Of a DNA stretch of 64,000 nt, positions 4,283 through 37,696 are shown in pieces (position 1 is the stretch's first letter; the number at the start of each line of letters is the position of its first letter). The stretch is from positions 1,674,001 through 1,738,000 of the forward strand of contig NZ_CP009287.1 in NCBI RefSeq assembly GCF_000758705.1, in the 5' to 3' direction. Source of the DNA: Paenibacillus graminis (GTDB lineage Bacteria > Bacillota > Bacilli > Paenibacillales > Paenibacillaceae). The position numbers were made by a program, and so were the translations under genes. The notes under the pieces were generated by a model. That model saw only the letters and a program-made list of their open reading frames with translations, was not told the DNA's origin and searched no databases.

Positions 4283-4356
4283 GCGGGTGTAGTTCAATGG
4301 TAGAACTTCAGCCTTCCAAGCTGATAGCGTGGGTTCGATTCCCATCACCCGCTCCA
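4283..4356 (+). tRNA. tRNA-Gly (anticodon TCC)
   Basis: A complete cloverleaf: acceptor arm GCGGGTG paired with CACCCGC, a D-arm with GTTCAATGGTAGAAC, an anticodon arm TCAGC/GCTGA-type with loop CTTCCAA (anticodon TCC, bases 4315-4317), a T-arm with GGTTCGATTCC, discriminator T and an encoded CCA (4354-4356). It reads GGA codons. A terminator follows 17 bp downstream, so it is a single tRNA gene. No integration scar or att-like duplication of its 3' end is visible nearby. Confidence 0.97.
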
Positions 4357-35227: not shown

Positions 35228-35306
35228 AACAGAAGAGAGAGACTATGAAGAAGCTTGGTTTTGAAAGGCTACATACTACTGGGGATATGATAAAGGAGAA
35301 TACTCA

Positions 35307-37625
35307 TTGAAAAAGTTAATTTCTTTGACTGTCAGCGCAGCTTTGCTGCTCGCGCCACTCGCGTATACGATTAATGCACCTGCCTTGAATCTAAAGGTGG
35401 ATGCGGTTTCAGCGGCTTCGGAAGAAGCACCTGCGGCTACAGCCAAACCGGCTGCACCAAAACCAACAGCAAAACCGACAGCAAAACCCAAACCGACCGT
35501 GAAACCAACACCGAAGCCAACCGCGAAACCAACACCGAAAGCAACGGCTAAACCGGCGGCAACAGCCGAAGCGGCAGCAAAACCTGCAGCGACCGCAAAG
35601 CCAACGGCAACAGCGAAACCTGCAGCGACCGCAAAGCCAACGGCAACAGCGAAACCTGCCGCAACAGCGAAGCCAACTGTAACAGCCAAGCCAACTGCAA
35701 CTGTTGCACCGGCACCGACCGCAAAACCTGTAACGGTTAAGCAAAATGTGTATCAGGACGGAGTGTATGTAGCTTACGGCAATGCCTACTCCAAAGGTAC
35801 TGAAGGGGCTAAGGTAACCATTAAAGACGGTAAAATCACTGACATTGAGCTGCTGAGAACCAGCCCGAAGCTTATCGACAGAAATGCCCGCGAGAACTAC
35901 AGCGGCGTGTGGGCAGCCTACAAGCTGATGAAGGACAGACTGCTTGGCCAGACCAGAGACAGCGCAGCAGCCGTGGATGCGGTTTCCGGCGCAACACGCT
36001 CCAGCAACGGCTGGAAGCTGTCGGTCGACAGAGCGTTTGAAAGAGCGCTTAAGGTCAAACCAGCGGATGCCGCTTATTTTGAAGGCGACCATATGGGTGT
36101 AGATCCGGAAGGCAAATATGCTGTATTCGCCAGCTACGATGCTAATAAGCTTACTGCTGTGAAGCTGTATCCGCTGACTGCAGCCGGTGATTTCGTGGAC
36201 GAAAAAACCTACACTGCTGAACAAACTGCAGCCATTGCCGCAATTACACCGGTACTGCTCGCAAACGGTTCTTCCGCCCAGCCGGTTGCAGGCTTCGAGG
36301 CGGAGTCCAAGGCTGCCATCAAAGCCTTCCGGGATGCAGAACAAAACGCAAGCATCAACAACACCTCAGCGTATATTGACGGATTCTATTCTTCCTACGG
36401 CACTGCAAGAAGCGTGGGTGTAGAAAGAGCCGATGTAGTGATCCGCAACGGCAAGCTGGTGGATGTGAAGCTGTACAGACTGGGCACCAACCTGATCGAC
36501 AGAGGCGCAACCGCTTATGCTGAAGTAGTGAAGGCCAACGCTCCAATGACGGCTAAACTGCTTGCTAACGGTTCTTATATCGCTAATTATAATGAGAAGG
36601 TAGACGGAATTTCCGGCGCTACCGAAAGCAGCCACGGCTGGAATCAGGCTGTAGAACGGGCTTTTGAGAAGGCTCTGAAGGTTCCGGCTGCCGGCCAGTA
36701 CTTCGACGGCAAATTTGCCGGTGTGGACAATGCGTCCAAGATCTTTATGCTTGCTGATGTAGCGGGAGACCAGGTAACGGGCATCAAATTAAGCTTGTTC
36801 GGAACAGACGGCAAACTGATTGCAGACGATAAGCTGACTGCTGAACAGAAAACTCTGGTTGAACAATTGACCGCAGGACTTCTTGACAAAGGTGTACAAA
36901 TCGCTGACATTACTGGTCAAGAAGCGTTGACTGCAGCGGCAAGAGCTGCACTGACAGACGCTTTGACCAATGCTTCCAAGGAGCAGGGCGCTTATAAAGA
37001 CGGTACCTTCACTGCCTATGGCGACGCTTATGACAAAGGAACAAACAAAGCTGATGTTACTCTGCGCAACGGCAAAATCGTAAATGTTGCTCTGAGCCGT
37101 GTAGGCATGAATATGGTTGACCTGGGCAAAAACGCTTATGCTGAAGTGCAAAAAGCGCTTCCGCAGCTGACAGCCAGCTTCCTTGCCGCAGGCACCAGAG
37201 AAGGTGCACAGCAAGTGGATGCGGTTTCCGGGGCAACCAGCAGCAGCAATGCGTTGAAGGCTGCGGTGGACAGAGCATACGGCAAAGCTGAAGTGGTTGA
37301 AGCCGGCAAGGCTGCTTACTTTAACGGAACCTTCATTGGTGTAAGCACCGACAAAACTGTAAATGTAATGGTTACTGTAAAATATAACGTTCCAGTGAGC
37401 ATGATTGTTTACTACCTGGATGCAGCAGGCAAAGTAAAAACTTACGATCAGCTGACTGCTGCTGAACAGGCTGTGAAGGCAGAGATCGAAAATACTTCGA
37501 CCGGCAATGGCCTGCACAAATATGGATACCGTGCAGCGGCATTCGGCAGCAATGACGCTGAGAAGGAAGTCTCCGCCAAAGCGGTAGAAGCCATCAAAGC
37601 TGCACTGGAAACAGCAGGGAAATAA
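35307..37625 (+). CDS. Secreted protein with three FMN-binding domains and a TAKP-repeat linker
   Basis: A 772-residue exported protein. A signal peptide spans about residues 1-35, with no lipobox Cys. Residues 40-145 are an Ala/Lys/Pro/Thr repeat suited to spanning the cell wall. Three repeats of about 205 residues follow, each an FMN_bind domain (PF04205 type) with the flavinylation motif: VSGATRSS (Thr230), ISGATESS (Thr439), VSGATSSS (Thr644). In this family ApbE links FMN covalently to that Thr. Related multi-flavin surface proteins, such as Listeria PplA, carry electrons out of the cell; that role is inferred here. The start is TTG with AAAGGAG 8 bp upstream. No apbE or NADH dehydrogenase gene is in the window. 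FNR-like sites precede it and a terminator follows. Confidence 0.88.
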   Translation: MKKLISLTVSAALLLAPLAYTINAPALNLKVDAVSAASEEAPAATAKPAAPKPTAKPTAKPKPTVKPTPKPTAKPTPKATAKPAATAEAAAKPAATAKPTATAKPAATAKPTATAKPAATAKPTVTAKPTATVAPAPTAKPVTVKQNVYQDGVYVAYGNAYSKGTEGAKVTIKDGKITDIELLRTSPKLIDRNARENYSGVWAAYKLMKDRLLGQTRDSAAAVDAVSGATRSSNGWKLSVDRAFERALKVKPADAAYFEGDHMGVDPEGKYAVFASYDANKLTAVKLYPLTAAGDFVDEKTYTAEQTAAIAAITPVLLANGSSAQPVAGFEAESKAAIKAFRDAEQNASINNTSAYIDGFYSSYGTARSVGVERADVVIRNGKLVDVKLYRLGTNLIDRGATAYAEVVKANAPMTAKLLANGSYIANYNEKVDGISGATESSHGWNQAVERAFEKALKVPAAGQYFDGKFAGVDNASKIFMLADVAGDQVTGIKLSLFGTDGKLIADDKLTAEQKTLVEQLTAGLLDKGVQIADITGQEALTAAARAALTDALTNASKEQGAYKDGTFTAYGDAYDKGTNKADVTLRNGKIVNVALSRVGMNMVDLGKNAYAEVQKALPQLTASFLAAGTREGAQQVDAVSGATSSSNALKAAVDRAYGKAEVVEAGKAAYFNGTFIGVSTDKTVNVMVTVKYNVPVSMIVYYLDAAGKVKTYDQLTAAEQAVKAEIENTSTGNGLHKYGYRAAAFGSNDAEKEVSAKAVEAIKAALETAGK
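35580..35687 (+). repeat. 36-bp tandem repeat in the linker of the flavoprotein gene
   Basis: Two identical 36-bp units (35580-35615, 35616-35651) are followed by a third, diverged one. Each codes for KPAATAKPTATA-like residues. The identity suggests recent expansion and possible length variation of the wall-spanning linker. Confidence 0.85.
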
Positions 37626-37647: not shown

Positions 37648-37696
37648 AAGGGGTTATTCCGGGCCATGCACATGGCCTGGGATACCCCTTTTTTTA
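37648..37696 (+). terminator. Terminator after the flavoprotein gene
   Basis: AAGGGGT/ACCCCTT with an inner CAGGCCATG-like stem (GGGCCATG/CATGGCCT), followed by T7. Confidence 0.85.

Follow-up and report, generated by a model that had tools for sequence, protein, structure and literature searches.

The gene at positions 35307..37625 (+ strand) of the window, by which we mean the whole 64,000-nucleotide stretch of DNA analysed, encodes a 772-residue protein with three predicted sites for covalently bound FMN. We think it rather probable that this triple-FMN protein is an extracytosolic multi-flavinylated electron carrier that draws its electrons from the membrane-side, flavin-based export system encoded in its genome. 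But how would it obtain its flavins? Where would its electrons come from? Are the three flavins arranged as a wire?

Gene and N-terminal region

The gene, delimited from the list of open reading frames, the sequence and the Pfam matches, starts with a TTG codon, and reading the sequence places a ribosome-binding-site-like AAAGGAG (35292..35298, +) 8 nt 5' of it. A terminator-like hairpin with a T run (37655..37684, +) begins 30 bases past the stop codon; it is a consensus match only (nine such sites occur in the region, where shuffles give 3.7 on average), and it would suit a transcript that ends at this point. Flanked by a divergent ferrochelatase gene and a yhaM-like gene, the triple-FMN gene is in no operon with EET genes and seems to be transcribed without its neighbours. 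At 13 Paenibacillus loci (L008-L020) the yhaM-like gene is always found downstream and a divergent hemH match upstream in nine; the hemH match is absent from L009, L013, L018 and L020, where the genes on both sides are retained. The neighbouring genes give no functional hint for the triple-FMN protein. At gathering thresholds, Rfam matches the window only once, at a tRNA gene (4283-4353).

Residues 1 to about 37 (35307..35417, +) form a putative signal peptide, judged by eye from the MKK start, the hydrophobic core and a conserved D-x-VSAA, and signal peptidase I likely cuts after VSA (A36) or VSAA (A37). The linker that separates it from domain A1 (residues 38-145; 35418..35741, +) comprises 108 residues rich in Lys, Pro, Thr and Ala, with a net charge of +16. 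Both features had been noticed in the earlier note, and so had the missing lipobox, which follows from the complete lack of cysteine in the 772 residues. Among the 53 aligned relatives with a usable N-terminus the linker measures 25-125 residues (median 76; the limits are taken from the alignment and are rough) and is net positive in 51. No LPXTG-like end is present in 65 aligned rows, and none of the four Pfam families listed for the triple-FMN protein at E <= 1 is a wall-binding domain. With such variable linkers in the 53 rows and no wall anchor found, the wall-spanning role first given to this region is a guess.

Predicted flavin sites and six-domain array

Pfam FMN_bind (PF04205) matches three stretches of the protein (E 4.8e-22, 78.8 bits against a cut-off of 22). 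SGAT motifs at residues 227-230, 436-439 and 641-644 place the candidate flavin-bearing residues at Thr230, Thr439 and Thr644; when the letters of the protein were shuffled 2000 times, at least three [S/T]GA[S/T] motifs arose once. The corresponding domains are A1 (residues 146-251; 35742..36059, +; Thr230) and A3 (residues 561-665; 36987..37301, +; Thr644), both drawn from Pfam, the alignment and the model, and A2 (residues 353-461; 36363..36689, +; Thr439), drawn from Pfam and the alignment. They share 44-48% identity. In the predicted structure the last main helix of every A domain begins with the site Thr, and the best structural matches include SaFMN3-D2 and CbFMN4-D1. The solved structures of these two have FMN bonded to Thr, with the helix-start position stated for SaFMN3-D2 in the covered sections of PMC10339131. 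The site Thr is kept in 62/62, 63/65 and 63/64 non-gap rows of a 65-row alignment that reaches down to 52% identity, and the three exceptions are Ser. From the motif, the fold and the presence of ApbE in the genome, it is very probable that ApbE flavinylates at least one of the three sites. Domain A2 has Arg368 at the position of a Tyr in A1 and A3, a Tyr/Arg/Tyr pattern by which the sites are possibly non-equivalent.

The earlier note described three repeats of about 205 residues carrying SGAT at Thr230, Thr439 and Thr644. The motifs and their positions stood, but each repeat is in fact a flavin domain (A) followed by a second, motif-less domain (B), in the order A1B1A2B2A3B3, a pattern conserved across the 65 aligned rows. 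The B domains have the same predicted fold as FMN_bind, with an acidic residue at the place of the flavin-bearing Thr: Glu331 in B1 (residues 252-352; 36060..36362, +; from the model and a structural match), Glu539 in B2 (residues 462-560; 36690..36986, +) and Asp750 in B3 (residues 666-772; 37302..37622, +), the last two from the model and comparison. A fold kept despite its missing site is also what might be expected of a structural protein of the wall whose flavin domains are relics and whose sites would be flavinylated only in part or not at all in the cell. The A domains argue the other way, since each of their three sites is occupied by Thr or Ser wherever a row has no gap, and so does the presence of ApbE in every genome with the family; we regard a relic as very improbable.

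Structure prediction had been proposed in the earlier note for the inter-domain regions. The modelled array has a mean pLDDT of 94.8 and a pTM of 0.92, no segment after residue 143 falls below a pLDDT of 50, and the approximately 630 C-terminal residues are predicted to be one ordered array of six FMN_bind-fold domains. Does this make the protein a wire, with its three FMN so near one another that electrons could hop between them within a single molecule and so cross the wall? The high-confidence order of the array and the three conserved, possibly non-equivalent sites would suit such a role. However, a site-less domain lies between successive flavin domains, which would usually put flavins farther apart, and the linker that was meant to span the wall precedes all the flavin domains and carries no site. 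Because of both features, the strict wire is the least supported part of the earlier idea, and we hold it to be quite unlikely; a continuous flavin wire is not supported when domains without an attachment site separate those with one. Another picture, which we would call possible but less likely than not, is that of a rigid redox rod of six domains. Its three covalent flavins would be non-equivalent, and the conserved flavin-less copies of their fold would keep the distance between them fixed. With the charged linker placing it in the wall, the rod might serve as a three-flavin relay, directed or storing, for up to six electrons. Such a geometry of flavin and flavin-less copies, if true, is absent from the descriptions of multi-flavinylated proteins in the covered sections of PMC8238504, PMC11334425 and PMC10339131. 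By alternating flavinylated with site-less versions of one fold, the array also offers a natural construct for studying how spacing and site environment affect electron transfer between covalent flavins.

Other architectures were seen among the related proteins. A 526-residue relative, P0065, apparently has only two A-B units and would be a natural copy-number variant of the array. Three longer proteins (P0066, P0067 and P0068; 1076-1247 aa) combine a Fer4_5-type membrane part with many FMN_bind domains in one chain and resemble P0071 of Clostridium paridis.

ApbE and the putative electron-export genes of the genome

Neither ApbE nor Pyr_redox_2 has a match at E <= 0.001 within the 64-kb window, in agreement with the earlier remark that no ApbE or NADH dehydrogenase is nearby; both families are present elsewhere in the 7.17-Mb genome. 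The suggested search of the whole genome for apbE, ndh2 and eetA/B was fruitful. One ApbE (1610756-1611598; PF02424, E 1.8e-89), with a start that looks lipobox-like by eye, is encoded about 98 kb from the triple-FMN gene. The earlier note would have given up its reading in a genome without apbE; as one is found here, that objection does not apply. An EET-like cluster of 17.1 kb (611206-628274) lies ~1.08 Mb from the triple-FMN gene (at 1709 kb). It contains NusG_II (EetA-like), Hpre_diP_synt_I (EetB-like) and EcfT-like genes and two ORFs that look ABC-ATPase-like by eye, together with a UbiA-family prenyltransferase, a polyprenyl diphosphate synthase and a 626-residue NDH-2-like protein. It also encodes a 304-residue lipoprotein-like PplA-like protein, matching NF041941 with E 5.8e-22 and 78.2 bits, below the model cut-off of 325. 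We take the NusG_II and Hpre_diP_synt_I families (PF07009 and PF07456) to be EetA and EetB. Homologues of the Listeria-type EET set (eetA, eetB, ecfT/fmnA, ndh2, pplA and apbE) are thus all present in the genome, as family matches rather than from direct comparison with Listeria.

The naming of EetA and EetB agrees with the Listeria-type operon of Paenibacillus sp. Cedars, in which seven of eight Listeria-type homologues are found in one operon with ecfA1-ecfA2-ecfT (PMC10373932). Since EET has been demonstrated in that strain, the background system is known in Paenibacillus (PMC10373932). The covered sections of the Cedars account mention no additional triple-FMN surface protein. Encoded so far from the EET cluster, a protein of this kind is easily overlooked by operon-based surveys.

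The genome holds other likely ApbE substrates besides the triple-FMN protein. At E 0.001 PF04205 has just one further match in the genome, a 663-aa lipoprotein-like protein (6927062-6929053). It combines an FMN_bind domain at its N-terminus with a flavocytochrome c/fumarate-reductase-like FAD domain, and an ORF near its gene looks permease-like by eye. The PplA-like lipoprotein beside Ndh2 (627360-628274) has SGVS motifs in place of the expected SGAT. At 21 PplA-like loci (20 plus that of this genome), four are second copies that score higher and carry SGAT, TGAT or AGAT; SGVS or SGVT occurs at least once in 16 of the remaining 17, and G018 has AGVS and AGAS. Two genomes, G191 and G217, encode ApbE and a PplA-like protein of the SGVS/SGVT type yet have no PF04205 match at E 0.001, and for this reason SGVS/SGVT may be an ApbE target.

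Distribution and co-occurrence

Searched at E <= 1e-20 in 295 Paenibacillaceae genomes from 19 genera, the triple-FMN family is present in 50 genomes of two genera. ApbE accompanies it in all 50 (versus 161 of the 245 other genomes), and 49 of the 50 have an Ndh2-like protein (E 1e-100; 65/245 elsewhere), a PplA-like protein (E 1e-8; 62/245) and EetB (E 0.001; 65/245, one of these 65 below the family cut-off). Ndh2-like proteins and EetB occur together in 113 genomes, and each occurs alone in one. The association is strong in these raw counts, which are confounded by descent, as only two of the 19 sampled genera have the family. In the window's genus, Ndh2 is found in seven of the eight genomes without the triple-FMN family, in one of the seven split in two pieces. 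In G287, where the family is absent, the Ndh2 match (C1:553710-556174) is in two pieces and the adjoining PplA-like match holds a stop; the EET locus there may be decaying. Among the genome contigs searched, the closest named relative of the triple-FMN protein, with 94% identity over residues 91-772, is from Paenibacillus jilunlii. From the co-occurrence, we put the chance that the electrons come from the EET system at even or slightly better.

The one exception to the pattern is informative. G241 encodes an 80% identical copy in which each of the three SGAT motifs is kept, as is the G-x-E in B1 and in B2, on a stretch that ends inside B3; the genome also has ApbE. No Ndh2 match at E 1e-100 and no EetB match at E 0.001 were found in it, and its PplA matches are weak (best E 2.8e-5). 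The same genome has three FMN_bind proteins of 611-629 codons that are FAD-flavoprotein-like and a 165-codon FMN_bind frame. G241 counts against a strict dependence on the EET genes, unless their loss is recent, and its gene content means that the tie of the family to electron export is not absolute. Might the protein instead be a flavinylated surface protein whose redox reaction is protective or tied to a particular acceptor, for example in the chemistry of oxygen, metals or thiols within the wall, with a donor other than Ndh2, Eet or PplA? A three-SGAT protein kept with ApbE and without these genes at the cut-offs used would favour this, the solitary position of the triple-FMN gene, remote from the EET-like cluster, is consistent with it, and oxygen can serve as acceptor for reduced SaFMN3 (PMC10339131). 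The presence of EET genes in all but one of the family genomes speaks against it, G241 may be a case of recent loss, and no alternative donor gene adjoins the triple-FMN gene; this kind of redox role is unlikely, if less so than a wire. As a genome with the protein and without the EET genes, G241 offers a direct test case for dependence on the EET system.

Relation to known flavoproteins

How does the protein compare with those already described? Three flavins in one protein do not go beyond what is known: in the covered sections of PMC8238504, 2081 proteins with several FMN_bind domains are reported from 1530 genomes, with up to 13 predicted sites, and SaFMN3 of Streptomyces azureus has been purified with three FMN and a single potential of -184 mV (PMC10339131). 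SaFMN3 and CbFMN4 (Clostridiaceae bacterium) are of an extracellular type with three or four covalent FMN domains (PMC10339131), and the triple-FMN protein, as predicted, resembles them in this. It differs from them in that their domains are >80% identical within one protein and joined by unstructured linkers, whereas its own A domains are more divergent and are modelled as part of an ordered array; the near-identical domains and disordered linkers of a SaFMN3-like string of beads are not found in it. The SaFMN3 and CbFMN4 genes are also flanked by flavin transferase genes (PMC10339131), unlike the distant ApbE here. With more than one FMN-binding domain in a probably extracytosolic protein, it is similar to the multi-flavinylated class, which is mostly Gram-positive, has been proposed to act in long-distance electron transfer and in some gene clusters includes cell-wall-binding proteins (PMC8238504, PMC11334425). 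Beads on a string, circularly permuted, three-petalled flower and coiled-coil core are the structural groups given in the covered sections of PMC11334425, which make no mention of flavinylated FMN_bind domains alternating with site-less ones. Thus proteins with at least three covalent FMN domains are known, and what is new is a variant with alternating site-less domains.

PplA of the Listeria-type EET system is an extracytosolic covalent-FMN protein and an ApbE substrate, as is predicted for the triple-FMN protein. PplA, however, is a lipoprotein of two domains, as described in the source sections covered, in contrast to a protein without cysteine that has three flavin and three site-less domains, and its gene is beside ndh2 and the EET genes, in contrast to a gene at 1709 kb with the cluster at 611-628 kb. 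The triple-FMN protein has no match to NF041941 (lipo_FMN_PplA) at E 1e-3. NCBI names its relatives 'FMN-binding protein'. Paenibacillus is not mentioned in the main text of PMC8238504 or PMC11334425, and we found no account of the triple-FMN protein in the part of the Paenibacillus literature on flavins, EET and FMN binding that was covered, which is the main text of mostly open papers.

Proposed mechanism and significance

The protein would be exported by Sec and cleaved by signal peptidase I. The lipoprotein-like ApbE would then attach FMN at Thr230, Thr439 and Thr644, as the motif, the fold and the presence of ApbE suggest. The positive and probably disordered linker may retain the protein inside the anionic cell wall or at its surface, no covalent anchor being needed, and the three flavin domains are predicted to alternate with the three flavin-less spacers in an ordered array of conserved pattern. 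Judging from the co-occurrence, electrons would most likely be received from the Ndh2-like enzyme, quinone, the EetA/EetB-like proteins, the PplA-like lipoprotein or free flavin, and would be stored or passed on to more distant acceptors, ferric iron for example. The triple-FMN protein is probably an additional outer part of a known bacterial electron-export system. If this is right, Gram-positive electron export would include a second flavoprotein layer, beyond the PplA-like lipoprotein, in some Paenibacillus and in a neighbouring genus group.
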